In this document: piece by piece, positions 10,585 to 57,579 of the stretch
Layout: the number at the start of each line of letters is the position of its first letter
Position numbering within the stretch: the first letter of the stretch is position 1
DNA from: Isoetes taiwanensis
Taxonomy: Eukaryota; Streptophyta; Lycopodiopsida; Isoetales; Isoetaceae
NCBI GenBank assembly: GCA_021234155.1
Contig: JAJEKV010000046.1
Span: forward strand, 10,740,818-10,804,817
Direction: 5' to 3'
DNA length: 64,000 nt
Program-made: the position numbers and the translations under genes
The notes under the pieces: generated by a model
Told to the model about the DNA's origin: nothing
Database searches by the model: none
What the model saw: only the letters and a program-made list of their open reading frames with translations

Positions 10585-12336
10585 CTTATTTGTATTATGT
10601 TCTGTTGTGTCCAGACCAATGTTGCTTAATATGACTTGTGGCGACAACATATGAATCTATTGAATATTTACGATTTTATTGACATATGCCATTCCACTAA
10701 AGAAGCCTAATATACAGCAACTGCAGCTCCCTCCACTAGCAACTGCATTGATAAGACTATATGACGCTGCTTCTTCTGAGCTCAAAACCATCTACAGAGC
10801 TATCTTCCCATGCTCTGGAGATCAGTGGGAGCAGGCATGTCCAGCTCGGCCACATCCTTGAATTGTTGGTAATTCTGAAAATTTGGAGATTTTTCTATGG
10901 CATAATTTCAAAGAATATAAAATAGCAGAAGGTTGAAAGTATAAGGCACATTGAATATTGGAGTAAAAATTGCCACTAATTAGAAGGAAAGTTCTTATGT
11001 TCATGGAACCCCAGAAGATTTGAATTCAAACAAGGTAGTTTTCGAGGGCTGGTTTCCCAAAGAAATCTTTAGACATTACAAGTATCCTTAACAATATTTT
11101 GTTTTTCCTTTTTTAAGTAGCATATAAAATAAATCTTTTGATATTCCTTAACATCGCATCTTCAATGCATTAACCTGTACAGACAAAGAGTATGGACATG
11201 CAAGGTGACAGGAAAGATAAATCTAACATATGAAAAGGCACTACTATCCCAAAATAAAGCAAGGGAACAAGTCCAAAATTTTCTAGAGGAGTTTATGGGG
11301 CCTATTTTGCCCATGATATTTCAAAGTTTATATCTATCACAAATGTGATATCATTAATGGATAAAACCATAAACAAAGTGCACATATCATGCATAAACAT
11401 CCAGATTGCAGATCTTTCCAACAAATAAAGCGCAGCTACTGCTTTCTTCTCTACATCCTGACCTAAAGGGTCATAGATGATCAGTTCTGAAGATCAACCT
11501 CGTACCCTTCCCGAGTTTGGCTAATGCCAAAATGGCAAGCCCAGCTTTTATTTCCCTAGTTTGGCTAGTGTCAAAATGGCAAGCCCAGCTTTTATAACCG
11601 GCCACGTACAACTCAGATGTGTGAAAAACTATTTTCTATATAGAAGATTTTCACGTTTTTACAGTGAAGTTATATTTATATATATATCGTTTATGTGGTC
11701 TACAAATGCTACAATCTTGTTGTGGACTATAGACACATTAGGAAAGTTGAAAAGTTGAAAAGTTTTCACATGGATTAAGCATGTGAGTGTCAACCACTGT
11801 GGATGTTTGGTTAATGTTTGGATTAGATTGTTTATGATGTCTCTACAATGCATCTTCTAGTTCAACCCATTCATCAGATACCTTTATCTATGACACAGAG
11901 ATTCTAGAAGTTTCCGTTTCAATCAAAATTTTAGATTAAGTTGCTAGGTTATTTCCTCAGTTTAACTGGTTACAATGTCATACCCTCTTTGCATCTAAGC
12001 TTAATGCCATTGGAAAGTGTGTTGCCATGTGACATCGTTCTACCTCCAACAAAGATGCTTTTGGGGCATTCTCCGATGACTCCAAATTTATGGTAAATAT
12101 AAAGCTTTAGAATCTTGAGTGACTCAGAGTGACCTGTTATCTATCTCAAACAAATCCTTATCTGATGTTTTAGTTTTGCAAGGGCTAAATTTATGCACTA
12201 AATATGTATTATTTCCAACATTTTTGGGCTTTCTCATAGACGATAGCTTTTTAGATAAGTATAGCTTTATATAAATAACTTATCTTTGCTCTTACGTGCC
12301 CAGTTTGAGATTATAATGCTTTTACTATTCCTGCAG
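10585..12336. other. No convincing gene; short tandem duplication at about 11513-11600
   Basis: Open frames here are short and unrecognised, including one of 60 codons at 10679-10861. A unit of about 39 bp (GTTTGGCTA...AATGGCAAGCCCAGCTTTTAT) occurs twice in tandem at 11513-11600. The remainder is AT-rich without visible structure. Confidence 0.5.
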
Positions 12337-12468
12337 ATGGATGGATGGATGGATGGATGGATGGATGGATGGATGGATGGATGGATGGATGGATGGATGG
12401 ATGGATGGATGGATGGGATGGATGGATGGATGGATGGATGGATGGATGGATGGATGGATGGATGGATG

Positions 12469-12506
<38 letters not shown>
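12337..12506. repeat. Compound microsatellite (ATGG)n then (ATAG)n
   Basis: About 33 ATGG units run from 12337 to 12470 with one inserted G near 12415, followed by about nine ATAG units to 12506. All long frames over this block are artefacts of the repeat. Confidence 0.97.
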
Positions 12507-12574
12507 AATTTTAACGTCCATTTTAACTCATATGGAAGAAATAACAAAGATTGGGTAATGTTCTACTGTGAAGA

Positions 12575-12780
12575 TTGGGTTTGAAAGGTGGTCCTTTCAC
12601 GGGTAGCACTCTAGTTGATATGTATGCCAAATGTGGCTCACTTCTAGAGTCACAACATGTATTAGACAAGCTATCAGTTCATAGTGTTGTGACTTGGAAC
12701 ACATTAGTTTTTGGATATGCTGAGAATGGATGCAGTAAGGATTCATGGAAATGCTTTCAAAAAATGCAACTTGAAGAATA
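12575..12780 (+). pseudogene. PPR protein fragment (PLS type)
   Basis: The frame shows GSTLVDMYAKCGSLLESQ, then VVTWNTLVFGYAENG and WKCFQKMQLEE, about one and a half pentatricopeptide repeats. PLS-class PPR proteins bind organellar RNA and in plants often guide C-to-U editing or splicing (family knowledge). Homology fades after about 12780, and neither a start nor further repeats are present, so this is an isolated fragment. Compare the larger PPR pseudogene at 43600-45040. Confidence 0.75.
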
Positions 12781-13740
12781 TGTCATTGAGACAATGAGAC
12801 AACTTCTCGTAGAAGGACCTATACTCCACATACTCTTTTCATGCCTTTCAGAACTCCACAATATAGAAAGATGGTGCAACTTCAAAGATGGCCAATGTTT
12901 CCAAGCAGCCGCATCTTAAACTTCTGCCTGTAAACCACAAAGCCAAGAGCATAGACCGTTGATGCTACCTTGTTACGTACAGTTATTATATATACACTTA
13001 TCATGCTTTGGTGCAGGTTCTTTTTGTTTATTTTTACTGAACAATGTTGCGAATAAGTTCAAAGAAAATTGACCTTTTCAAATTTCTTTCAATCGTTTAA
13101 TATTGTTTTAATTTGCCTGTTTGAGATAGCAATCCACATTGAGATAGCTCTTATCTTTCCATGCATTCTTGTGATAGCTCTTGTCCTTACTCATACCACA
13201 TCCTACGATTTGCTATGCAAAGTAATCAAACGTGCTTTTGACTAGTTTTTTGTGTTTAAGGTCTACATTAGGAAGTCACCAGACAATCAAGTCTAGTAGA
13301 CACCTACATATCCTATTCATATCGGGTTGCGCCGAATGGACATAGTGAACATGTATCAACAGAAAGTTCTACTACCTCGGAGTTCATCATTAATATAACC
13401 CCTAGCGACTTCCATCAAGAAATGACATCTAAGGGATGGTTTAAACCCCTCACCAAAGTGCACAAATTTTAGGCATCACTAGGTCTATATCAGCTATAAT
13501 CTTTGTGCAGTTCATCCACGCGTCATCATTTCATCTGTTAAGTGCTATATATTTGATCATTTAACAGACCTTGAACCCTTCTGCAGTGACAAGGAGGCCA
13601 GACTAGTTTGCCATTAGGGTGATGCTCAACTTTCATGCAACGTTCGCTTATTGTTGTCTGGAATGGCTGCTTGATGCATTCTTGCACTTCCTTTTTCATG
13701 CGCTATGTTGTAGTTTATTTTGCTCTTTTGGCTGTTTCAG

Positions 13741-14599: not shown

Positions 14600-16782
14600 A
14601 TGGGATCGATGCTAGAAGTGATAAAAAAGAGCAGCTGGATTACTCTTGAGGGTCGCGTGGACGATATTGTGGATGTAGTATTTACTCACAACAGAGATGC
14701 GGCAGCTCTGGCGCATCCTGGACGTTCACGTACTGTAGCACCGCTACTTCTTAAAAGACCGGAAGATGGCGGCTCTTGCGATATCTCAGGTAAATTTATA
14801 GGTCCAAATTTATGAATCGCTATATCCTGGCGATTGTTAATTGGAATCTGTCATAAAATTTCTGTTTTGCAATTTTTCAAAATCTATCCCTGGCAATATG
14901 TGCAGTTATAATGCAGAATGGACAATATTACCTTCACAGGCTTCACATAATAAGCACAGCTCGGATTTGTGAAATCTATACACAAAGAGACCATCATGGG
15001 GCTGCTGATTATGCATGTAGTGTACGAGGTGAACATCTCATGATTACCAAGGAGAACAAAGGGGATGTGCAGGAACCTCTTTCGAATGCGTTAGCAGAGG
15101 ATACAGAACACTTTCAAAGTGAGGGCCAACCTGAATGTTCTAGAGAGTTGGAAGTTAAAACTGCTGATATTGATATGTATCCCCAGACTCTTTACAAGAT
15201 GGATATAAATCTTGATGACTCGCATCCGTGTACAGTGGTAAAAGTAAAGTTTCTATCTCTGAGTGACAAGTCGTGTGCATTAGTAAAGGAGTTGTTCATA
15301 TATGGTATTGGGATTCCAGTGCCAGTACCAAATGAGAGGACTCAACATAATGAGATCAATGCAAATGGTGGCTCCTCATTGCTGACAATATTTGTTCCAA
15401 GTATGTTGCAGATGCTCCGAGGCTTGCCAAATATGCGGAGCAATGCCATAAGCACACCAGATGGAAAAAGGAAACCCGACCTTTTAATCAATGACACTCC
15501 TAGCTCATTTCTGGAAACAATGTCAGAAACTGCAGTAGGAATTGGTAGTCAGGACGTATCGTCTGATCCTGCAGTCGAGCATATAAGCATACATGAGGAT
15601 GTGGATAGCGAAAACAGTGCAATGTTCAAACGAGTTCCCACTTGTGAACTTGTGAAAGATAAATTTGTGCCGTCAAACATTGCATTATGTCCTTCTGGCC
15701 AGCATGATATGGGCAAAGCCATGGGAAATTCAAATAGCCCGCCTGAGCCATACAATTCCCATACTACAGTGCTGGTGGAAGGGAAAGTTGAATTCTCAAA
15801 CACTGTATCATGTCCCGACGCTATTCTGGAAAGTTCCAATCAGCTGCATGTACCTTGCGATTTTCACCCTGCATTGGAATCTGAAGTTGGTTTTCCTGTC
15901 CAGGTAAGAAGTGATTTTTGCAAGGACATGATGGATTGCTTAAAGAATGTGGAAACCATTTGCCACCGGATGGAGTCCTATATGCAGAAGGCATTCAACA
16001 CGTTTGAGGAGAGACTCAAGAATTTGGAAGCACAAGCTCATACTTCTGCATCATGTATGCAAGCTGTTGGTTCTTCTAGTTACTCTCACACCTCTCAAAA
16101 CATTGGTTTTGCAACATCTGTTCCTCGTGAGTCTGGCGACCTTGTTGGCTCCTTAGACCCAATAATATATTCTTCTAGTCATGTGGAAGAGTCACAAAGC
16201 TTTCCACATCTTCTCCAAGACTCTGAGAAAGAATTTCCTGCTGAAATGGTGGATTGTCCTTCACAGATGGAGCAAGTGTTAGCTGTTTGCAGCAGTGAGA
16301 TGCCTCCATCTGCTGACATGTATTCTTCGTGCAAAAAGTGCAGTCATGTTCACGCATCATTTATGGCTGTTGCATGCCAAACTGAAATATGTTGGGAGAG
16401 TATTAGGAACAGTGAACTTTCTAACAGTGCTGTTGCACCGACTGATTCAGTCGAGAGGAATTTGGCAACGGAACTTTCACCTGGTTCATTAGACCTTATA
16501 GAATGGAATCTATTAGTCAATCAGAATTCTCAAGAAATGGCCATAAGCGAGATTCCATCTCTTCTTGATATGGATGATATTGCAGTTCCTTCATTTATAA
16601 CAGATGTATTTGCATCAGATTTGTCCACGGGCAGTTCTGTTTATTCTCCCACTGACTATTCATTAGCTGTTTCACTCTTACCATCAGAAAGTGATACAAA
16701 TGGGTGCCTAATAAAGGCCGAGGAGCTGAACAATTTGGGTAGCCTTGAGGCTCAATTATGCAACGAGCCATCCCAATCTTAG
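14600..16782 (+). CDS. PAAT (C10orf88)-like protein, two exons: join(14600..14789,14906..16782)
   Basis: Exon 1 starts at the ATG at 14600 (a second in-frame ATG follows at 14609) and ends at CAG|GTAAAT. The 116-nt intron ends TGTGCAG, and the split codon restores the frame, giving about 688 residues. The N-terminal half has a beta-rich domain: QYYLHRLHIISTARICEIY, then YPQTLYKMDINLDDSHPC and VKVKFLSLSDKSCALVKELFIYG. This resembles the PAAT/C10orf88 family, whose animal member is a putative ATPase affecting mitochondrial ABC transporters (family knowledge recalled, not searched). The middle is low-complexity and Ser-rich. Around residues 410-440 is a predicted helix, MDCLKNVETICHRMESYMQKAF...FEERLKNLEAQ, matching the coiled-coil found C-terminally in the family. 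No Walker motif is obvious to me. This is the best intact host gene in the window. Confidence 0.7.
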
Positions 16783-17394: not shown

Positions 17395-18141
17395 GAACCA
17401 GATGTCGTTGGGGACACGTCGCTGCGACAGGGACCAGACGTTTGCGTGCGACGTGTATAGATGTGACATAAACGTGCCTTATACGTGACACAGATGTGAG
17501 TAATGTGACTCAAATGTCACTTAGACGTAACCAAACATGATCGGACTAGAAGTCGCATGCGACGTTGACCAAACGTCGCATGAACATAACTATCATATCA
17601 TCCTCCTACTATAAGATTATTAGGTTGTGGCCACTGTTGGGCAAATTCCGGGGTAGAGAAGGGTTGTTCCGGTTGAAACTAAGAATTTCCGGTTGAGCTA
17701 GCGCATTGCAGGAAAAATTCCGGTGGATTTTTATGCATATATGTATAAGAGTAATACAAATTTCCGATTGGGAACTGAAAATATCCGGCTATTTGATGAA
17801 AGAGTAGGAAAATTTCCGATTGGGTTTAAAAACTTTGCCCAACACTGGTTGTGGCATTTCATACATACCCCCATCCATGCAAGCCCATGGATGGGCCCCT
17901 TTATCCCAACTATCCGCAAAAAGGTGTAATGTTCCTAACCGACATGCCCTTAACCAACTGGGCAAAACCGTTTAGACGTTTATGCGATGGGGACCAGACG
18001 TCTGCGACGTCTATAGATGTGACATAAACGTGCCTTATACGTGACACTGTGAGTAATGTGACTCAAATGTCACTTAGACGTAACCAAACGTGATCGGACT
18101 AGAAGTCGCATGCGACGTTGACCAAACGTCGCATGAACATA
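17395..18141 (+). repeat. Tandem repeat R (about 336-bp unit), first copy and start of the second
   Basis: Two copies share GGGACCAGACG, GATGTGACATAAACGTGCC, AAATGTCACTTAGACGTAACC and AGTCGCATGCGACGTTGACC. Their starts at about 17430 and 17990 are 560 bp apart; removing the 224 bp added by the MITE leaves a period near 336. The repeat is dense in GACGT/ACGTC and contains the palindrome GTCGCATGCGAC. Copy 1 carries the hAT MITE. Copy 2 is split by an LTR element at 18142 and by a piggyBac element at 25414. A third copy begins at about 32181 and is lost after about 25 bp. R may be part of a larger DNA transposon, but I cannot see its ends. Confidence 0.8.
17632..17847 (+). mobile_element. 216-bp hAT MITE, copy 1
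   Basis: The terminal inverted repeats are CACTGTTGGGCAAA and TTTGCCCAACACTG (one mismatch). They are flanked by an 8-bp duplication GTTGTGGC at 17624-17631 and 17848-17855. The second R copy at 25310-25330 has a single GTTGTGGC and no insert, which is the empty site. Eight-base duplications and CA(G/C)TG ends are the mark of hAT elements. Subterminal TTCCGG and TTCCGATTGGG repeats resemble transposase-binding arrays. There is no coding capacity. Confidence 0.93.
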
Positions 18142-25266: not shown

Positions 25267-25947
25267 ACATAACTATCATATCATCCTTTCTACTATAAGA
25301 TTATTAGGTTGTGGCATTTCATACATACCCCCATCCATGCAAGCCCATGGATGGGCCCCTTTATCCCAACTATCCGCAAAAAGGTGTAACGTTCCTAACC
25401 GACATGCCCTTAACACTAGAGTTGTATGATGAACCCATTCGGGTTGATCCACCCATACGGGTCCCTCAGACCCTTTTGCACTCAAACATATAATTCTCCA
25501 TGATACTTAAGAAATTTTGAACGTGGACACTTGAACTATAAAGTCAACTCTATTTTGTACCACCATATTGAAGGGCAAGCTCAAATTTGTCATGAGGTTG
25601 GCATAATTGCACCATAAACTCATTTCCGTGGTTTTGTGCGTAAGCATTGTAACACAAATATCTCTTCTAGTTTTAGTTGGTAGAGGACCTTGCCTATTAT
25701 TTTTATTACGCTCTTTGTGCCTCTAAGAACTCCATGTGGTGAGCTTTAACGTATTGGCGCTATTTTTTAAGCATTCCTAGCCATTGAATGGAATCTTCAC
25801 AAAATGTACGAACCGGATTAACAACTAATTTTGGAGGGTAATTTCGTTTAGGCGGGATTAGCAAAGAGTTAGCAAGGTCGGAATGTGTTACCGTTTCTAA
25901 ATTCTTGTGTGCATGCCTCCTCACCAATTTGCCTCATAGTTGGTGGG

Positions 25948-28801
25948 ATGGAATCCTCACTAGAGCCCCTACCGACAGATGATTTTTGCAAGAGACTTGT
26001 TGGTCGATTTGTGGTTGTACCTGCAAATGAATTTGGTCTTGATTGGGCAAAAGAGGCATTTGAAGAACTGCATGAGGACATGCTAATTACTGGCATAATT
26101 GAAGAATTTGATAAGAGACGGAAGGTTTTCCATATTTTCGTCTATTACGATGAGACTAGAACAGCAGTAAGATGGCCTTTAATTGAGAAATACATGGTAA
26201 AAAAAGGAGATAATGAATTACTCTTCAAATTAGAGAAAATAGAGGAAGAACGAAGAGGAAGCAAGCATAAACATAAATTGAGGACTGTGAATCTTGAAAG
26301 TACATGATTGATTTTGAGGAAACAAAAGAATCGAGACTTTTCTAGTGACAGTAATGAGAATTTATGTGATGAAGATGATTAAAAAGACTCAGACTACAAC
26401 CAACCAGAGACAGATAGTGAATCAATTGATTCGGATGTACCTCTTTGCAACGTGCTTCCTTTCAGTAAGCTGACATCTCTTTACTTCGTCACTCCGTATT
26501 CATACATTTTGTTCTCCTGTTTTTGGTTGCTCGTCATCATTTTATTGAGGCTTATGTTCATTGTTATTTCAGATCTTCCTGCACGAAAGGGTCTAGCTCG
26601 CATCTTAACATCTCATACAAGTATGTATCTTTCTCTTTTCATCAATGAAATATATGTGGTGCTTTACTAATAAGGACCAAAACAGAGGTATCTATGAATC
26701 TAGTATCTGATATACAACATGCTTCTACATCCATCGATGACGGAATTACTCTACAAGCAACTCCATCTGATGTGCCACTCTCCAATAGCAATTCTCCTGG
26801 TTATTTCTTAATTCCAAATTTTTTATTGTTTTCTTTGTTCAAGAAACTAATTGCTTGCATTTATTTAGATAAATGCAACCCAGAGGTGACAATGCACGTC
26901 ATCAATTTGAGTAAGTCTGAGCAGGCTCTCACCAAGCAAACAGATCTCGATCTCATATCTATGCATGGTAAATAGCATCTCCTATATTTGTCGTTCTTAT
27001 TCCATCTATGTTTCTCTTGATTCTTGGTATCTTTTTTCTATGATTAGTGTACCTGAAACTAATGGCTTGCATTTGCTATGCAGATAAATGCATCCCACAA
27101 GTAAGAAAACATAGCTGAAATTTGGTGCATCTTAGTAAGGAGCCTAGTCCTAAAAAGCTAGCACGTGAATAATGCAAGAAGACGGAAGCATATAAGGTGG
27201 CATCAATAGAGCATGGAGCTTCATGTGCTCTTTCAAGCAAAAAGGATATTGATTTCTCATTGCTACCAAATAATGATTGCTATGAAGGTGATATGATAGC
27301 CAATTCAATGAGATTAGATGGGCATGTGGATGATATTAATGAAAATAACAATTCGTTGCCTCTTGTCTCTAAGCCTCGTAGGGGTAGACCTCCAAAGAAA
27401 AGGAAGTTTGTTCCACGTAGAGAAGCATCAAGCACACGAGGAAGGCCTCGCAAGAAAAAACATTGTAAGATGTCTTTGAGAAAAGCATATCTTGATGTTG
27501 CTGATAATGCTTCACATGATTTTTGATATTGGTGAGGAGTTATTACACGTCTATTCTTCAAGTGAAGATGATTTCATAAATGCAAAGGAAGATGACGATT
27601 TGGAAATGGATGCGCCTGCATTAAAAGTGAGTGAAGATGATGATGAGACTGGCTTCAAGCCCATCGTGCCACTATGGAAATTAGATCGCAGTGTACTTCC
27701 GGGAAATGTGCTTCATGAACTACCCATCAGAGAGGACCAGCCTTGGAAGGTACAAAGAAGCTATCTCCTTTTGGTTTAATATCATTATTTCTTGAACACA
27801 ATATGGTGTCTGCAATATGTTGTGAAACAAATAGGTACACTGAAGAGCAGATTGATAAGATTTTAAGAAAGCAAAAGGCATGCAGGCCTTGGACAAATTT
27901 AGATATATCTGAATTCTACAAAATGCTTGGTCTTGTAATCGCTATGACATTGCATCCTTATCCTAGGTTAGAGCAGTTCCCGGAGAAAGGTATTGTAGGT
28001 GAAGTGGCTTCGCCAAACTTTGGTAAATTCATGCAACTAATGAGATTCCAGCAAATTAGGAGGTTTTTGCATATTAGGGACAATGTTTATAGATCTGTTC
28101 AGAGAGATACTAGAGAACACAAGCTATACCAGCTTGAAGGGATTGAGAAGGAGCTAAATAAGAAGTTTATTCAAATGTTTAGGCCTGCAAAAGAGGTGAC
28201 ACTTGATGAGAGGATTATTCCTTCAAGGAATAAGTTCAACCCTGTACGAATCTATAACCCAAAGAAACCACATAAGTTTGGAGCTCAATTCTGGATGCTA
28301 TGCGAATCTTTATCCGGTTATTTGCTTGCAATTCTCCATCTATGACAAGGTTGAGCAGAAAGAGGGTCTCGCATTTTATGTCGTGTCTCACCTTATATCC
28401 AAGTTACATTCTCGTGGGCATCATGTCTTTTTTTATCGCTTTTCACTAGCAAGAAGCTTCTTGATTGGCTTTCAGCAAGGCATCAAGGTGGCTATGGTAC
28501 AGTGAAAAGTAGATGCCATAAGATGTTCCCATTGAAAGAGCTGAAATTATCATCAAGCAAAAGGGAGAATGTTCCAAGAGGTACGTATAAACTTGCCTAT
28601 TGCGAAAAATCTGGAATTGTGGTTTGTGCATGGCAAGATAAGGATGAGATACTATTCGCATCCAATTGCATTGGTGTGGAACAAACGGTCGTGAAGAGAT
28701 TGGTCAAACCGGCAAAGAGAGAAGAAGTTTGTGCTCCTGAGATAGCAGCAGCATATAACAGGCATAAAGCTGGATGTGATGTTCATGATAGAATGTGTTA
28801 G
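25948..28801 (+). pseudogene. piggyBac transposase, N-terminal, AT-hook and DDE parts (broken)
   Basis: The first exon-like frame starts MESSLEPLPTDDFCKRLVGRF at 25948. Several short exons with GT..AG borders seem to follow between 26330 and 27110. At 27197-27526 two AT-hook motifs appear (SKPRRGRPPKKRK and STRGRPRKKK). From about 27525, after a frameshift, comes an acidic stretch and then the transposase core: ISLFLEHNMVSAICCETNRY, FYKMLGLVIAMTLHPYPRLE and VTLDERIIPSRNKFNPVR, with the first catalytic Asp at 28205-28207. The second Asp position reads Tyr next to a one-base deletion near 28440. The third Asp lies in NRHKAGCDVHDRM (28778-28780). Further shifts occur near 27748 and 28345. Coding stops at 28801, where an inversion begins. 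Confidence 0.92.
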
Positions 28802-30464
28802 GCATAGACATAACAACCTCTATTTCTTCTTTTAATATAATACATATTTATCATTCTCTCATTGTTTACTACAACTGATTCTAATCATATTAACTTTTGT
28901 CTATATGTCTAGTATACCCTCCCTTCACTTTACAATTTGTTTTATTACAGTCTGCCCTAATTAAATTTTGTATATCACGCACATCACCTTTATACCATCG
29001 TTTAATGCAATTATATATATTGCACCATGTCTCAAATTTTTACATGTTTACTTGAAGATTAATTACACACAGATGTTGTTCATCATTCGTTATTCATAAC
29101 TCTCGTTATTCGTTCAATAATTTGTATATAAGACATACATAATTATACATCTCATTATATTATATTTTACGGTGCATTCACTCTACACTTTATTATATCA
29201 ATATTTTCTTTCCACTATATTTTGAAATACTTTTCTTCTTTTGACTATCTCGCATCTTTCCTGACCCATTTTTTTTTTTTTTTTTTTCGTTAATCATACT
29301 TTACATTAACATGTGTAGAGATTCTTATATTTAGATTGCATAGATACATATAAGAAGTGGTAAGATATCTTGATTTGGGATCGATAGTCTAGAGATTTGG
29401 TATGTCGATGTTTCTTATCGCATTGAATCACTGGACCTAATAATTATGAGGATTGGCCATAGACCACGTTAGAAAGGTACCATATTAATGTGGAAACTGG
29501 ATTATAAGTACCTAGCCATCAATGGGTCCATGGTCTGCGCAATTTCCTTACCAGATATAACTGTCATGCAACCACCTCTACATGTTTTAAATTCTTCCAC
29601 AGATTTGATCCCTGATTAGCCTTGAATCACTAGACTGCATATGCTTCTACATATGCTTAGAACAGGTCTATTTGTCTATCTGTTCTTATAATAATCTGCA
29701 TGCATGGTTTAACCATTTGAACAGAGATATTAACATGTCTCTGTAGCTTTTTATTTCCTGTAGATTAGTGCTTATCGATATGTATACCTTGGAAAAAGAA
29801 CAATTGCTTCTAGCACAAAACCAATGGCCCATAGTTTCAGATAAGATTACAAGCTGTTATAAGTCTCTTCCTTCCAGCAACCCTAATAAGCTTTCTGTAA
29901 CAGAGGCAGAGAACCTGTTATTTCATGTTATCTTAAAGCATAATCCCATTTCCTTTCTTCTTTGTGATTTATATATTCTTTCTCTAAATAGTAACAAATT
30001 GCAATAATTGTATCTTAGTCCCAAATAAGCTAATGAATCGTCTAAGTACACAAATCTGCTTTGGCATTTGCATTCTACTAGACCCATTCCATCATAAGTA
30101 GCTTGTTATTATGAAAGCCCTCCCTATCATCTTTCTTTGCACCCCATTCTGGATCAAAACTTGTAGATAAATATTATATCAGACACGTTCATTGCTCTTT
30201 CCTGTAAAATGAAGTGCTATATCACAACCCCACTCTATTGCCAAACATAAAGCATGCAGCAGACCAAAGCTCAGCCCTTTGGTTACCTGCATACACTGTC
30301 ACAATAACAGCTTATATACAAGATTATATTATATAAATAACAGCTTATAAATCAAAATAAGTTTGAACCTATTATATATTCAATAGCTTATAACAAGATA
30401 CAATTTGCAGACCTGGTTGTGGAGCTTATGCATGTACTAAATCAGCATGTACCAGTGTTGGAGA
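28802..30464. other. Non-coding interior of the piggyBac element
   Basis: AT-rich, with a T run at about 29271-29288. No domain-bearing frame is visible; one 79-codon plus-strand frame at 29768-30007 has no recognisable family. Confidence 0.5.
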
Positions 30465-31016
30465 TTACATTTTTCTGTATATCACAACAAATACATGAGC
30501 TACATTAACAGAGCAAACAACAAATCTAGAAATACCATGTGCAGACCTGGTTGTAGCTTTTATATGTTTCAAAGCTCTTTTCTTATCTGATTCCCATCCC
30601 TCTGAATGTAGAAACATATCACAAACTCCAGGGCATACATAAACTTTGCAATCTTCACAGAAAAAGCGTGTTCTTACTGCTTTGGCAGAATCATGGACTA
30701 CACCATTGCATTTTTCTAATATACGCCGCGCAGCATGTACTACACAAACTCTGTGCTCTCCTTCACTTTTATAATTTGTATTGTGAATCCAACTACATGA
30801 GGCAAAGGAGTTGCGTGTCACAGGTCCACCATTCAAAGTATTCTCAACAAGTTGGCATTGCAATTGTATAACGAATTGATAATGTGAAATATCTGGATTC
30901 CAATGCTTGAATATTATGTAAGCATTGGTTAGAACAGAGTCTAGCATTCCCCAAAATAAGACATGCCACCACTTCCATTCAACCATTTCCCTCTCTAAGT
31001 TGTACCATGGACCCAT
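30465..31016 (-). pseudogene. piggyBac transposase C-terminal part, inverted
   Basis: The minus-strand frame begins GPWYNLEREMVEWKWWHVLFW, then LDSVLTNAYIIFK, the helix that follows the third catalytic Asp in piggyBac transposases. It ends in a Cys-rich zinc-binding domain, from HDSAKAVRTRFFCEDCKVYV to CPGVCDMFLH. The plus-strand part ends in DRM (ATG at 28793-28795) and this part begins with ATG GGT CCA TGG, so the two join without loss if 28796-31013 is flipped. The Cys-rich domain normally binds the transposon ends (family knowledge). Reading stops at 30465 with TGA or TAA after VIYRKM. Confidence 0.88.
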
Positions 31017-32176
31017 TGATGGTTATAGCAGGAAACATTTTGGATCAGCATCAGATATCAGAAAACATTTTGATGATGATCAGATATAGAAAGAACAAGA
31101 AGGCAGCATTGATAGATACAGGGAAAGCCGTATTGCCGGATTGAGACTCTGGTTATTGATTGTGCTTAGACAGCCTAAAGTCTTAGACCTCTATCTTGAA
31201 TATTGTCGGGATAACAAACCTTGAAATAAGGAAATTGTTGCACCTTTGCATAATCAGTTATATTGATGGTTTTGCTAGTCTCCTATAGTTGAAATTCAAG
31301 TGTAAGCCAAGTCTCCTATAGTCTCCTAACAAATATAAGGTGTCGTTCCATGCATACAAGGGAATTTTTGTTGTGCAAACAACTGGCTCGAGAATATTTC
31401 GTCTTTGGAATGGCATTTCAGGCCCAAATAAATAAGGGACCCAATTAGGTCCCAATGACCTTCATCTTTTCATGGATTTTTATTTGAAAATAATTTTCAC
31501 TTTGTGTTTTTGGGATTTAGCCAAAGTCAAGTAAATGTTCATGTTTATTTGTTTGACATTTTGTAATTCATAAAAGGTCTACAATCCACCTACACAAAGC
31601 AAGTATCTAAATTTGACGATTTTTCATTCCATGATTCTCGAAATGGAATGAAAATATCAAGGAGACATTATTTTTCCATGAACATTGATGTTACATAGCA
31701 CATATCCTTGAAGTTATGCTTGATTTCTTCAAAACCTTCAGTAGTTAGGAATAATCAAAGTTCTGGTCATTGAGAGACCCAGTTGGGTCCCTAAGAGATT
31801 TCCGGGACATAAACTTCTAGGAATTATTTCTCCATAATTACACCATAGTTTTTTCTAAGAGTTTCTTTGTTGAATTTCTCATCTTCTGTTCCACAAGATG
31901 TATGGATTGTAATTTATAGGAAAAATCATACTTGTAAACTAACATAAGAAATGTTAAACATTGTCGTAACAGGCTCGACCCCCTTGCACTCAACATATAC
32001 ATACTACTTGGTAACAAGAGCTTTACAATTTTACACAATTTTGCCTTGTATATACACTTCCAAACAATGACATAGTTGAAGGGTTTAGACAAATTCTTGA
32101 TCTTGGAACTATAATAGAATTTCAAAAGAACTATACTTAAAGACCTGTTCGGGTTCATCAACCTAAAACTCTAGTG
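31017..32176 (+). other. Right non-coding arm of the piggyBac element
   Basis: AT-rich. It contains GGGACC..AATTAGGTCCC at about 31438 and GAGACCCAGTTGGGTCCC at about 31768. GGGTCCC also occurs near the left end at about 25460, suggesting subterminal binding motifs. No gene is seen. Confidence 0.5.
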
Positions 32177-32205
32177 TTAACCATTGGGCAAAACCGTCTA
32201 GACGT

Positions 32206-38576: not shown

Positions 38577-38842
38577 GGCCGGATCACTGTTGGGCAAATT
38601 CCGGGGTAGAGAAGGGTTGTTCCGGTTGAAACTAAGAATTTCCGGTTGAGCTAGCGCATTGCAGGAAAAATTCCGGTGGATTTTTATGCATATCTCTAAT
38701 ATATAATTGTAATATGGAGGATAAGGGGGCAGCTTGAGATACTTATAGAAAATTGATATTTTTGCTTAGAGTTGTATACGTGTAAGCCTTTAAAATTATT
38801 AGAGAGGTGACTACACCTTTCAGAAGTTGACACATAGATATA

Positions 38843-38938
38843 TTCCAGAAGGGTGTTTCCAGAAGTTTCTTGAAGCTTCATGTAGGTGTTAGGTGTGTCG
38901 TTCCGGAAGCTTCTGGATTGTCCTGCATTATATAAAAG
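38843..38938 (+). promoter_or_regulatory. Heat-shock promoter: clustered HSEs and TATA box
   Basis: A perfect five-unit heat-shock element occupies 38857-38879 (alternating TTC and GAA blocks, each separated by two bases). It is preceded by TTCCAGAA at 38843-38850 and followed by TTCCGGAAGCTTC at 38901-38913. TATATAAAAG at 38929-38938 completes a promoter on the plus strand. Such arrays bind trimeric heat-shock factor (established knowledge). Downstream 38939-39300 looks like a leader but has no recognisable HSP coding sequence. Confidence 0.85.
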
Positions 38939-41691
38939 AAGGAGAAGTGAAAAGTTCAAACCCAGATGCAAACCTGGATAGGTCGAGATGGATTGGGCGC
39001 TGAGATGTTCGTGAGGAAAGGGTTTGTGGAGGAATCTGATCCCGGATCCTACTGATCAGTCCGAGGTTCCTATTGGTGGCGGACCCATAGATCAGTCAGG
39101 AGATCTGCGTCCTGTTTTCTAATTCCTGAAGCTGAAGATCAAGGGCAGAGCTCTGTAGTTCCTGTGTCAGATGTCGAAGAGACAAAGTTTGTAGATGCTA
39201 CTGGGAGAGCTATATAAATCGAAGCTTGGTTTTGAGTCTCGTCCTGTGGTGTAAAGCTTTTTCTCCTTTTTTTTTGTCGCGAATCTCTGTTGCAGATACT
39301 TCTAGCCTTTGACGAAGAGATGTTGCTCTGTTTTAGAGATGCTTTCTTCGTCTAGGTCTTTTTTTCCACTTGGGTTGTTGTTCCACCCCGAATTTGAGTC
39401 ATAGAGTTCCCTTCTGTTTAAATCGAACCTCAATTATCTGTTATCAGACGGGTAATTTGCATCTGATTCAAAATCCTAAGAGTATGGCCTTTGTGCTTGC
39501 AAATTACTGTTTCGGCCTGTAAGTGGCCAACATAGACCTGAAACCAGATTGGAAAGAACACTGCGGAGTCTGGGTCCCAAATCTGTCTATTTGAGTGCAG
39601 CTCATGTTTGGCAAGCATAATCTGCGTCTAGCTATTTTCTTTGTATTTCGAAATACGAACTTGCAGCGAACAGTAGGCTTAGGAATAGATTCATTGTCTT
39701 TGGACTTTGCAAGCCACGGATTTTGTAGGCAAAGTTAACCTCCCAAGCAAATTTGAATCAAAAGCAAGCGTTGGAGGGACATAAACCAAAGGCGGTCTTG
39801 GTGGTGGGACCTTTAAATAACACAGATAATTTCAGTTTGTGCTGCCAGTTACAACCAATCGGTTTCTATTTTACAATCTTCCATTTCGTTACGTTAAGAG
39901 TTACAAAGTTCTGCTTCTTTTATATCTGTCTGTCTCATCAGTTTTTACCTGCACCAATTTTATTCAAACACGTGATGCTAACAAAGTGGCATGCCGATTG
40001 TGGCTTTAGGGTTATGGCCGTCACCCGAGCATGTCAATAGTTTGGGGAAAGGGTAAATTTGAATTTTTTCGTAAAATTAGGGCTAGAATGATCTTGGCTT
40101 CCATGAATTACGCCCTACACATACTCGGAGGCCAAAAGAAAAGGGCATCAATTCAAGGGGATGCTTGCAACCTTTTGCTATGCCTTGGCACGCAACCCGA
40201 ATTCATGAGCATTTGGACCCCATAATTCTTGATCATGGTGTATTGCTAATATTGGTATCCGAATGTTGATCCTTTTGCTAATTGTCATGCCTCCAAGTTG
40301 CATATCTTTGAAAGCCTCTCTCACCAATGGGGGAGCGGTGGATAAAGCCTCGAGTGCCCTCGTTTAAGATCATCCCAAGCCGCACATGTAAAACACGTAG
40401 AGGTTTGAGTTCTTAATCCAAATTTGAATTATGCAACGTTGAAGTTGAAGCAAGGATGAGTGGAAAAAAAAATAGCCTCACCGTTTTAGATTACGCTTTC
40501 CGAGTCTCTCAGTATCCGGACAAGTATTGTTGCATAATTCTTGGACTTCGGCTCGCCTTTCTCTTGCCATTCGGATTTAGAGAAAGCAAAAGATGAGGGT
40601 CCACGTGAGGAGCACGGATGTCGTTTCTTGGCTCAGTAAAAGAAGGTTTTGCACTCTTCTACCAATTCCGAGATGCCTAATAGTGCCTTCTTCCCTTTGC
40701 ACTTCTTAAAACCGACCAAAGATTAAGTAGTTCCAAAAGATCAACGCCATGAGAGCTACAGTGCGGACTCAACCACAAAGACGCGTTTTTCTTGAATCAA
40801 ATTCTTAAGCAGCCTTTCAATTTCATCAAGAGATGTTTGTGCTTTCTACAATGCAGATTCCTTGAGAAGCTTCTACGTATGTTTTTCTCTATCTGTTTCC
40901 TGATGGAAAAAATCACGTGGTTTTTGGGCTTTAGATCTTTAATTTATGTGCAGATAAATATGCTGCTTTGTTATGGAGGCTCAAGAGCCATGTTACTCAC
41001 AATTTCAACGCGGATTTCATAAAAAACCCTACCACCTATTTCAAATGTCAATGAATTTGTTGCAGACAGGACATCAAACAAGCGCTGAGTTATGGGAGAT
41101 TCACATCATTTTGTGGTCTAATGCAACATTGAAATTTATTTCCATACTGTACATAAGATAAATTCACGGAAACAAGTTCAACCAGAATTCCTATCTCCCC
41201 TACTTACAGACAAAAGTACCTTTGAGGTCGTTCTTGATTTTTTTCTCAAAAGTACCTTTGAAGTCGTTCTTGATTTTTTTTTTCAAATTTAGGGAGGGAC
41301 ACCAGATTTCATGTATCACGCCTAATATATTAAAATATAAGATAAAGAGTTTTATAGGGTTCATGTATCCTGCCCAATATATTAAAAAGAGTTAATATAG
41401 GGTTCATATGTTATTTTGGTCCCATCGATTACTTGATTTTTGAAATGTTTGTCTACTTCATTCTTGAAGTGTTTGTCTGAAATGTTTGTCTACTTCATTC
41501 TTGAAGTGTTTGTCTACTGTGTTACGAATGGCCTCTATGTTACTAATGGCCTCTATGTTACTGATGCTTGCTTTTGTAACTATCTTGATTGTTTGTGTCC
41601 AACACATTAAGCCCATGCCCCCTCCTAATTAGTTCATAAAACTAAAATGCAACATCAAGTTGAAAAGTCATACAAAGATACAAAGGCATGT

Positions 41692-41715
41692 TTGCGGCGG
41701 CCTTGGCCGCCGCAA
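41692..41715 (+). repeat. Helitron 3'-terminal hairpin
   Basis: TTGCGGCGGCC and its complement are separated by TT. It stands out in GC content from its surroundings and ends 11 nt before the element boundary. Confidence 0.85.
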
Positions 41716-42270
41716 TAAATTTCTTGTATGTATAAGAGTAATACAAATTTCCGATTGGGAACTGAAAATATCCGGCTATTTGATGAAAGAGTAGGAAAAT
41801 TTCCGATTGGGTTTAAAAACTTTGCCCAACACTGGGCCGGATTGCCGTATTATTGAACGCCAAAAGTGTCAGAACTCGAACTCAATGACCTTAAATTTTT
41901 AGTTGTTGCGTTCAAATGACCCTAAAATTCTCTAGGGTCTAAACTTCATCGCTGGTGATTGGGATTCCTCAGGTCGGTCTTTTGTCCTTTTCAATATGAT
42001 ATTGCAGCCGTTCCATTTTTGCAGGTCAAAGCTTCTATTAAATTCTTTTTGTTCTTTGCATCGTTGATCACTGGGAAGAATCGAAGGTGGTTGTTACGGT
42101 TTATGATAAAATATAATGGAAAAGACAAAATGCCGGGGCAGATATTACAGAGCAGAAAGGGTTGCAGAAAGGATTTTAGAGCTTGCATTTGATTAAAAAG
42201 TATAGATAATTTTTGTCGATGGATGGTTGGGTATGCAATACAAGTAAAGCCAAAGTATATTGAAGTACAT

Positions 42271-54180: not shown

Positions 54181-54990
54181 ACATGACAATACAGCCAGCA
54201 TGGGAAAAAGAACCTAAACTACACTGCAAAATGGTAGTAGACATGTCTGATTCTTGAACTGGATTTGAGATTACTTTTTCTGTGTTGATAGAAACAATCT
54301 AGGTCAAGCTTCAGATGCTTTTCTAATGTAATGCAACTAATAATTAAACATACTTGCAATGGCATATTTTGGTCTTAGAACATTGCTCTGCTTTTCTGTT
54401 TTGATTTTAGTTCAGATTGAATGTGTGGTCTATAGGAATATGACTTGGTTTTTTCCCCATCATCTTCATCATCCTTGTCACTTTTACTGTTTTCTTCCTG
54501 CTCAAGTTGGATTTGCCTATGCTTTCTCTTGAGTCTACAAGAACTGGCCTCTGCTCATCGGGAGTTTTATAATAATCCAAGAAGCTCTTCCAATTAATAG
54601 CCTCCCCCCATTCCACCCCATGTATGTGGCTTCCCTGTAATTCTTTTGTAAATTTGCATGAAATCCTTATATTGTTGATTGCTCAAATTCTTCAACCTGT
54701 ATACGAAAACATATGCCTTAAGTTTTCAGTTTTAAACAAACATTTGGGGGAAAATACCTGTAACCAGATTTATTTGAAACTTTGTCACCTCAAAGCTTCT
54801 TTATTAGATCTTTATGGGACACAATCTCTTGTTTGAGGAGAGATTTCATCATGTAACTAGTGGCATTCAATTTTGACTCCATTAGGGTTCAATTGGCAAG
54901 AAGCAGCAAAAAAACAGAAAAAAGATGTGATTATTTTCTTAGTTCGAGAAGAGGGACAATGACGTGGCATAAAATTCAAAATAACCGATG
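54181..54990. other. No gene established
   Basis: A 69-codon minus-strand frame at 54407-54616 (starting MEWGEAINWKSFLDYYKTP) is unrecognised. The rest is non-coding. Confidence 0.35.
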
Positions 54991-56089
54991 CTCATCATTC
55001 AACTTGTCTTTCTCTGGGTCTGGCAGGGTCAAGACGGGGGCGGTTGTCAAAGCTTCCTTCAATAATTCAAACCCTGCTTGGGCTTTCTTGTGCCAATGAT
55101 CTGCCCAATCTTTCACCTTTTCCGCCCTCGTCAAGTCCGTTAGCGGGGCTGCTATCTTTGCGAAGTTCTTCACAAACTTCCTGTAGTACCCTGCTAGGCC
55201 AAGAAAACTTCTGACCTCATGGACATTCTTCGGTGCCGGCCACTGAATCACTGCTTCAATCTTGGCAGGGTCCGTTGAGATTCCTTCTGCTGAGATCACA
55301 TGCCCCAGGTATTCCACCTTCTCCGTTGCGCAGTGGCACTTCGACAACTTGGCGTACAACTGGTGCCTTCTCAACTTCTCGAGCACCTTCCTTAGGTGTT
55401 GTACATGCTCTTCAAGGGATCTGCTATACACCAAAATGTCATCAAAGAATACTATCACGAAGGTGTCTAAGAACTCCCTGAAGATGTCGTTCATGAGCCT
55501 CATGAACGTTGCCGGGGCATTTGATAAACCAAATGGCATTACCGTGAATTCATCCGCGTTCTGAAGGCAGTTTTATGGATGTCTTCTTCCTTTATCCTGA
55601 TCTGATGATAGCCTGACCTTAAGTCAATTTTGGAGAAGACTTTTGCCCTTTGGAGCTGATCCATCAAGTCGTCCGATCTGGGGAGCGCATACTTATTCTT
55701 GATGGTGTGCTTGTTCAACTGCCTGTAATCTATGCACATCCTCAAGCTGCCATCCTTCTTCTTCACAAAAAGAATGGGTGCCCCAAATGGTGAGACACTA
55801 GGTCTAATGAAGCCTAGGTCGAGTAACTCCTGCAATTGCTTCTTTATCTCTGTCAGCTCCTGCGTCGTCATTCTGTATGGAGCCTTGCTTGTCGGCTTCG
55901 TTCTTGGTTCGAGTGCTATCTCACACTCGACTCCCCTGTAAGGAGGGAGGTGCTCGATCTCATCTGGAAAGAGGTCGTGGAACTCCGTGATCAACTTAGC
56001 TATTTGCTTGGGCAACTTGCTGAGCACCTTATCTTCTTTGCTTTCTTCTGATTCGGGCTCTTCGATCTCAAGCTTGAAGATATATGCTA
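54991..56089 (-). pseudogene. Older chromovirus pol fragment F (RT region), target of element G
   Basis: Minus-strand RT closely similar to that of element [39 protein letters not shown] and [12 protein letters not shown] deletion of about 14 nt near 55560 removes the residues between FRTR and MPFG and shifts the frame. Homology ends near 55000, before RNase H. At 56089 it is cut by the LTR of G, and the linker frame is open up to that point, unlike in G. Confidence 0.9.
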
Positions 56090-57579
56090 TGTGACGTCCC
56101 CTACTCGTATACGATGCCCGCACCGTATACAAACAGGAGTTCATCCCCCGCACCAGCTCCACACTGATACAGGGCCCTCCACATGTCACCGTGACTGTCT
56201 AGAGTCCACAGTGGGAAGAGTGAAGGGGTCATTTTACCCCGTCTCCCTCAGGGCCTACCTAGCTGCGAAAGCGTAAACATACACGTCAGTAACATAACAT
56301 CATATATCCACCTCGAAGGGTGGCACATAAACATCTGCATAGACAAGGATCAGCACAACACAAGGAAGTTCCTACCCAAGGCTCAGACTCCAGGGGATGA
56401 CTGACTAGCTTGGGTCTCCAGAGTTCAGTGCAGACAGAATCATGACAATGGATTGGGCTGGCATAAGAACATGGCTTAGGGTTGTCCACTCCATCCGCCC
56501 CTCCTGTGCACACTTTGCAGAGTAGGTTGAAAAGTGTTGGGACCTGACTGTAGCCCGCCGGGTGCATAGCCAAAGGGGCTATTCCTGGGTTACATCTCCC
56601 CAGTCCCGATGGGGCAGGTAGGGATCGCTCCCTCCAGAGATCTACATGCTGACCCAAGGTGACTAGAGGGCCACTGCCCTTATTCGACTTAACCCACTGG
56701 AAGGTGAACACCACCCCACGGGTGTCGAGCCCATGCCTTACCCGCACTCAGTGGCAAGCCATTAGACCTAGTCACTCTGATCCCCGGTAGGCCTTACACA
56801 CCAGAGGGATCGGTCAAGGGTCAGAACACGAACCTCATTCTAAGCCAGTCTGGCCCCTTCACCCACAACCAGGTGGGCTCCTGTACACAGGCCGAAATCT
56901 AGTAATGCACTAAGAGGGACTAGCTAGGAGCATCATCTACTAAGCTTTAAGTCTCTACCCCCCTTCCCAATACAATGAGTCCACAGAATACATCCGTCCA
57001 TCATATCACATAAGTAATAAGAACTAATCTAATTCATAGAGTTAGGTTCTTTAGTTAGAGTCAATCTCAGGATCAGCTTGGCTACTAAGGGTGAATTAAT
57101 AGGCTAACCCTACTGATTCAAAGGCTGGAATAAGGTTTAGGCTATTCAATCGACCAAATACCTGATCCCTAGTTCACTCCTCTCAATCCGAAGGCGTCCA
57201 TGTCTCTGTTCTGCTTCGGGATGCAGTCGGGAGGATGATCTGACAAGCTGGGGCGCACGGGCAGATCGTGGGAGTTGGAATTGACTCCTCAGGCGCGCGA
57301 ATCGGAGCTCAGAAGGTCTGTGGGCGAAAAAGGGAATGTTAGGGTTTTGTGCCTTATGTAGGCTGTCAGTTACGTTTAGGGTTTCCATGACCCATTGGTC
57401 TACCTTTAATGGGTTAAAGGTCTAAAGGTGCGCGCTAAGTGTGCGCACCATTGCAAGTTGCCCCCTAGGGCGTCCTTGCTTGGGTACACGTCGGCGTACA
57501 CGTCGACTGGACGGCGTGTACGCGTGACGGCGCAGTACGGTATACGTCTTGAGACCGTATATTGTACTGGAACGTCACA
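56090..57579 (-). repeat. 3' LTR of element G (1,490 bp)
   Basis: On the minus strand it runs from TGTGACGTTCC to GGGGACGTCACA, so the two ends share TGTGACGT/ACGTCACA. GGTGGGGAGAA at 57590-57580 precedes it as polypurine tract. The first 65 nt can fold as an imperfect hairpin (GTGACG/CGTCAC and AGTAC..ACGGT/ACCGTACT). A GTATACG/CGTATAC hairpin lies near the other end. Confidence 0.85.

Follow-up and report, generated by a model that had tools for sequence, protein, structure and literature searches.

A piggyBac transposon family in the lycophyte Isoetes taiwanensis: an inactivated copy between two TTAA sites, its relatives and a conserved N-terminal domain

The locus

The window (that is, the whole stretch of 64,000 nucleotides of Isoetes taiwanensis DNA analysed here) carries PPR ORFs, a NIF phosphatase, a 5'-nucleotidase exon and chromodomain Ty3/gypsy elements, and passages of the genome paper describe many PPR genes in this species (PMC8566536). 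A gene at 14911-16779 has a single protein-database match, to Sinapis alba at 28% identity. The features that concern us here are as follows (window positions, strand, description).

17847-17982, +, paralogous unoccupied site with one TTAA at 17950-17953
25410-25413, no strand, left TTAA target-site duplication
25414-32176, +, piggyBac element, inactivated copy (6,763 bp, between two TTAA)
25414-25423, +, left 10-bp terminal inverted repeat CACTAGAGTT, exact
25428-25436, +, left subterminal inverted motif GATGAACCC
25948-26304, +, N-terminal piece of the transposase with a Tudor/SH3-like domain (about 25975-26202)
27380-27460, +, two AT-hook-like motifs (RGRPPKKRK and RGRPRKKKH)
27743-28798, +, catalytic core in pieces, frame broken (DDE_Tnp_1_7 and tblastn with fern proteins)
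28205-28207, +, first catalytic Asp codon (D268 of piggyBac), intact
28434-28436, +, second catalytic position (D346), Tyr here and Asp in the sibling copy
28778-28780, +, third catalytic Asp codon (D447), intact
28800-29512, +, about 0.7 kb extra relative to the sibling copy (about 11 bp there)
29513-29534, +, left arm of a 22-bp inverted duplication, taken as an inversion breakpoint
29535-31003, no strand, segment read as inverted (reverse sibling alignment at 30378-31004; left limit inferred from the duplicated arms)
30573-31016, -, C-terminal part of the transposase (KWWHVLFWGMLD.. and the Cys-rich region), strand-flipped
31004-31025, -, right arm of the 22-bp inverted duplication
32151-32159, -, right subterminal motif GATGAACCC
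32167-32176, -, right terminal inverted repeat CACTAGAGTT, exact
32177-32180, no strand, right TTAA target-site duplication

A previous sequence-only reading of this DNA had described TTAA on both sides, 10-bp inverted ends and an inverted motif just inside them, all of which proved exact. Among the 290 TTAA of the window, paired at distances of 0.5-15 kb, the two that bound the element are the sole pair with inward exact inverted repeats of at least 8 bp, and the CACTAGAGTT-type end also bounds both sides of four further I. taiwanensis copies. The window copy combines a TTAA duplication with a short terminal inverted repeat (TIR) that has a known piggyBac 5' motif (CACTA type); CACTA is given as one of four conserved 5' TIR motifs of piggyBac, with TTAA and rarely CTAA as target, in passages of PMC10813416.

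A broken and rearranged transposase gene

The piggyBac transposase core named in the earlier reading is recovered by the Pfam piggyBac profile (DDE_Tnp_1_7) at 27743-28342 (E = 5.8e-29), and a second core piece matches the same profile with E = 0.0016 and 18.3 bits, under the cut-off of 22.4. When a profile of the window core and four cores from the fern Adiantum was searched against solved structures, piggyBat (E = 2.2e-40) and piggyBac (E = 4.3e-33) were retrieved. The gene is interrupted by stops and frameshifts. Residues 294-643 of the Adiantum protein P0001 align to 27737-28798 on the forward strand, and residue 644 onward aligns, with no gap in the protein, to 31016-30621 on the reverse strand; in sister copies, the core and the C-terminal part are collinear.

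The closest copy examined (L030/L031, the sibling, 89-98% identical in matching blocks) is also broken; it has about 11 bp in place of the roughly 0.7 kb and the inversion of the window copy, and Asp at the second catalytic place. For the window copy, an automatic alignment column gives Leu at this place because the frame is broken there. Given that the sibling has neither the insert nor the inversion nor the Tyr, all three probably arose privately in the window copy, which is, as judged from its sequence, an inactivated and internally rearranged member of the family. Both the inactivation and the rearrangement had been overlooked in the earlier reading.

Empty sites

When the flanks of the element are fused at one TTAA, they align to 17847-17982 with 97% identity over 136 columns, at the place (near 17950) where an unoccupied site with a single TTAA had been proposed. 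The match is lopsided: it extends over more than 100 bp to the left but only about 29 bp to the right, the side on which the two repeats diverge. The same test was run as a control on 17,892 other window TTAA pairs 0.5-15 kb apart, of which 18 also gave a junction-spanning non-self match, so such matches do occur in this repeat-rich window. The true pair scored E = 3e-38 against E = 3e-31 for the best control (among the 12 of 18 control matches listed) and, as its junction agrees exactly with the element ends, a chance match is unlikely. Another copy (L025) has its own empty site within the same locus, where the alignment through the junction is identical in 201 of 211 columns; no junction-spanning empty site was found for the flanks of L014 and L020 within the fetched DNA.

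The family in the genome

A search of the assembly (1,658,258,908 bp in 1,110 sequences) gave 83 DDE_Tnp_1_7 matches, some of which are pieces of one copy and 31 of which are free of stops. From the best 22 rows, 20 loci were fetched, with the window and one other left out. TTAA and a CACTAGAGTTGT TIR of 12-15 bp stand on both sides of four of these (L010, L014, L020 and L025; elements of 4,735-5,998 bp), TTAACACTAGAG occurs on one side only in six, and ten have it on neither side (two of the ten with the shorter TTAACACTA). The earlier reading had named a lack of other TTAA-flanked copies in the genome as the outcome that would speak against it, and the four copies remove that objection.

One of the four, L010 (5,998 bp), has an uninterrupted intronless ORF of 955 aa that matches DDE_Tnp_1_7 with E = 7.9e-60 and carries a DDD catalytic triad (D590, D665 and D779) and two RGRP AT-hooks. 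Among the fetched loci that align at a given catalytic position, Asp is found in 18 of 20 at the first, 19 of 20 at the second and 15 of 17 at the third.

Searches with the left and right ends of the element returned 40 scored matches each (window included) of 224 and 293 candidates, respectively. Among the matches listed are near copies (two at 94-95% identity for the left end and five at 89-97% for the right) and a large set at about 71-74%; in eight of these, left and right ends pair about 1.0 kb apart. Twenty loci of this short form were fetched, namely the eight paired ones and twelve for which the left end alone was known. Of the twenty, 15 are delimited at both ends, measure 973-1,003 bp and have a mean pairwise identity of 95.0%, and the remaining five have no exact right-end motif. 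TTAA stands on both sides of 7 of the 15, on one side of 5 and on neither side of 2, and one (L040) has CTAA on both sides. No significant transposase match was found in the single copy of about 1 kb that was checked. The I. taiwanensis family includes an intact-looking, putatively autonomous copy and a putatively non-autonomous family of about 1 kb with the same ends.

N-terminal domain, AT-hooks and Cys-rich tail

The order of parts along the transposase is N-terminal domain, AT-hooks, core and Cys-rich tail. The AT-hooks and the unusual N-terminal domain, both pointed out in the earlier reading, are real and recur across the genome, the former as AT-hook-like motifs at the same place in 18 of the 20 fetched copies and the latter in 15 of 20. 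In five of seven comparisons with L010 (L016, L011, L009, L014 and L022), dN/dS is 0.14-0.18 in the N-terminal domain versus 0.38-0.67 in the linker, and the domain is under purifying selection in most comparisons.

Four of nine members of the domain match the PTM_DIR17_Tudor profile (best E = 0.00029); Adiantum P0001 scored 16.2 bits against a cut-off of 27.2, and the match is absent from the listings for the whole proteins of L010 and L011. The nearest folds include the PHF1 Tudor, the RDM15 Tudor and the SHH1 SAWADEE domain, among mixed Tudor, PWWP-like and KOW rows, and no Foldseek row has E below 0.001; a search of the domain profile against solved structures gave one row (E = 1.6) and nothing useful. 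The domain has a conserved motif, VPAxxxGxxWA. It is best read as Tudor-like, and it probably reads chromatin.

A Cys-rich tail is present, and the piggyBat and piggyBac profile alignment extends into it. Against zf-Tnp_2, Adiantum P0002 scored 23.4 of 24 bits (just under the cut-off) and P0001 18.2; no match to this profile was found in the C-terminal piece of the window copy or in L010.

Relatives

A set of 5.8 billion proteins was searched twice by a method that detects only proteins with shared 5-residue words; this gave 9 and 10 relatives, all from Adiantum nelumboides and 38-45% identical to the window core. Three of the ten (P0001, P0002 and P0005) have the N-terminal domain, and the other seven models are without it or partial. 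Among viral contigs 46 stretches, and among prokaryote genome contigs 50, fitted the search patterns, and none in either set was confirmed as a relative. The AF2 model of a whole Adiantum protein has a poor core (mean pLDDT of 41.9), so little weight attaches to its Foldseek rows, in which piggyBat and piggyBac come first.

The tree comprised 27 rows, that is, 25 from plants and two outgroups, both animal (piggyBac and piggyBat). L020 and L023 were omitted for their short core coverage, as were the partial Adiantum models P0007, P0008, P0009 and P0011. The plant rows are split from the outgroups with support of 100/100, the six Adiantum rows fall together (100/98), the Isoetes-type rows fall weakly together (82/76) and the partner of the window copy is L021. 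On the basis of this split and of relatives found in Adiantum only, a plant-specific piggyBac lineage, as the earlier reading had surmised, is favoured but not proven, given the reliance of the search on short words and a tree with two animal outgroups only.

Proposed model and alternatives

We are highly confident that the element is a piggyBac-superfamily cut-and-paste transposon, in a full reading that takes in its insertion, its inactivation and the mechanism of its family. After a single insertion at a TTAA within a nuclear repeat of this lycophyte, the window copy was inactivated. The working form of the family may be deduced from sister copies: a transposase of about 955 aa would bind the CACTAGAGTTGT ends, cut via its DDD active site and integrate the element into TTAA, which is thereby duplicated, with the N-terminal Tudor/SH3-like domain and the AT-hooks tethering the enzyme to chromatin or A+T-rich DNA. 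The same transposase may also mobilise the derivatives of about 1 kb that share its ends.

Given that piggyBac is best known from animals (as extracts from PMC12732532 indicate), the element or its contig might be suspected to be animal or microbial DNA. The PPR, NIF phosphatase, 5'-nucleotidase and chromodomain gypsy sequences of the same window argue against this, as do the position of the insertion within a repeat present more than once in the window and the spread of the family across many scaffolds of one 1.66-Gb assembly; on these grounds we set contamination aside as having practically no probability. The two empty sites, the plant-type neighbours and the other TTAA-flanked copies instead uphold the proposal of a real transposition in a plant nuclear genome. 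Purifying selection, which acts on both the core and the N-terminal domain, and the one uninterrupted 955-aa ORF would also suit a domesticated transposase (like PiggyMac or PGBD5) whose pseudogenes are the dispersed copies. However, a domesticated gene is expected to lose its ends, yet L010 keeps TIR and TTAA on both sides, and the ends are kept by diverged subfamilies and are common to non-autonomous copies that are about 5% apart. With neither loss of TIR and TTAA nor a single copy to point to, we rejected a domesticated piggyBac gene as very improbable.

How the N-terminal domain works is a closer matter. It may be a DNA-binding or dimerisation module with a mere SH3-like barrel: the mixture of structural rows, none at E below 0.001 in Foldseek, is compatible with this, and the VPAxxxGxxWA motif is not known from Tudor readers. 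We give this option serious weight, although the matches of four of nine members to PTM_DIR17_Tudor and the nearest folds (PHF1, RDM15 and SHH1 among them) tip us towards a chromatin reader. It strikes us as unlikely that the family, instead of being an old plant lineage, was acquired recently by horizontal transfer with an animal, a protist or a fungus as donor. The patchy distribution, with A. nelumboides alone among the proteins found, would fit such a transfer, which is held likely for piggyBac generally (PMC12732532, in the passages concerned); on the other side stand the 100/100 split from piggyBac and piggyBat (two outgroups, both animal), the N-terminal domain common, where present, to lycophyte and fern copies, and the low identity of just about 40% between those copies. 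A bolder reading, which we offer tentatively and would not yet call probable, is that seed-free vascular plants (lycophyte and fern) have their own old piggyBac lineage, in which a Tudor-like histone reader and AT-hooks would steer insertion to a chromatin state. Within this old-lineage reading, the intact-looking Isoetes copy and the burst of TTAA-inserted derivatives of about 1 kb suggest that the element may still be mobile.

Significance

The superfamily is already known. A December 2025 beetle survey calls piggyBac occasional in plant genomes and names red algae (extracts from PMC12732532), and plants are listed as hosts without detail in the relevant passages of PMC10813416 and PMC8086355. 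A Ceratopteris repeat table, as excerpted from PMC6890710, counts 1,230 PiggyBac elements over 122,417 bp (about 100 bp each), so piggyBac-like fern matches are already on record. The main text of the I. taiwanensis genome paper makes no mention of piggyBac in the parts concerned (PMC8566536); among open-licence papers, no structural description of a land-plant piggyBac was found, nor any paper that brings together piggyBac and the fern Adiantum. Two things are new, namely the conserved N-terminal domain and a host range that has structural proof: piggyBac of a vascular land plant is now described down to its ends, target sites and empty sites, together with an uninterrupted transposase and putative non-autonomous derivatives. 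Should the N-terminal domain read histone marks, the family would offer a natural case of a piggyBac transposase fitted with a targeting module. L010 is a candidate plant-derived piggyBac tool, and the lycophyte and fern copies offer a testable case of vertical versus horizontal inheritance.

Comparison with known systems

Animal CACTA-type piggyBac clades share with the Isoetes family the 5' CACTA motif and TTAA, and their rare CTAA also occurs in L040; they differ from it in that its host is a plant and in that their layout is given as NTD, DDBD1, catalytic, DDBD2 and CRD, a layout for which the passages concerned name no Tudor-like part (PMC10813416). The DDE_Tnp_1_7 proteins of A. nelumboides (L7F22_026409, L7F22_001858 and others) resemble it in the core (38-45% identity), in three cases in the N-terminal domain, and in several in AT-hook-like motifs and a Cys-rich tail, whereas they belong to a different plant class, lack the N-terminal domain or are partial in 7 of 10 models, and are known here as proteins. 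Among solved structures, piggyBat (PDB 9c0f) is the best match (E = 2.2e-40, profile positions 45-514, the profile comprising the core only), but its host is an animal, a bat. With piggyBac of Trichoplusia ni (PDB 6x67), the family shares core homology, equivalents of the D268/D346/D447 triad, TTAA and a Cys-rich C terminus. In passages of PMC7351741 the N-terminal region of piggyBac is called disordered; relative to piggyBac, the Isoetes family adds an N-terminal Tudor-like domain and AT-hooks, in an element of about 6 kb with the TIR CACTAGAGTTGT.

Other piggyBac-family loci in the genome

Among the approximately 1-kb derivatives (that is, the non-autonomous family that shares its ends with the piggyBac element), L040 is bordered on both sides by CTAA and is possibly a non-TTAA insertion. 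The flanks of L047 and L051 are near-identical to each other and neither side carries TTAA; these two derivatives are probably copies of one larger repeat. The transposase-matching copy L014 spans 5,839 bp and has Tyr at the first catalytic position (D268 in the piggyBac DDD triad). Judged by eye, a flank of L014 resembles a long Ty3/gypsy-like open frame.

Other features of the window

Neighbouring elements in the window
12336-12495: long GATG/GATA simple repeat
12572-12916: PPR fragment adjoining this repeat
14911-16779 (+): 623-aa ORF; it encodes a PAAT-like ATPase domain (domain E 1.5e-6)
17632-17847: hAT-like MITE, copy 1, within the piggyBac empty-site repeat (which holds the paralogous unoccupied site)
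38585-41834: hAT-like MITE, copy 2, split by the following insert
38693-41726: Helitron-like insert, 3,034 bp
54979-56189 (-): second, broken partial copy of the Ty3/gypsy chromodomain polyprotein
58386-61319 (-): Ty3/gypsy chromodomain polyprotein, 978-aa open frame

The two Ty3/gypsy copies are 88% identical over the compared stretches, and the sole database match of the 623-aa ORF is in Sinapis alba. The hAT-like MITE (216 bp; two copies in the window) has the ends CACTGTTGGGCAAA, and its copies are flanked by the 8-bp TSDs GTTGTGGC and GGCCGGAT. The insert that interrupts the second copy starts with TC and ends with CTTG, preceded by a G+C-rich hairpin (41694-41713), and is flanked by A and T without a TSD. 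Helitrons usually end in CTRR at the 3′ side, a pattern from which the CTTG terminus of this Helitron-like insert differs.
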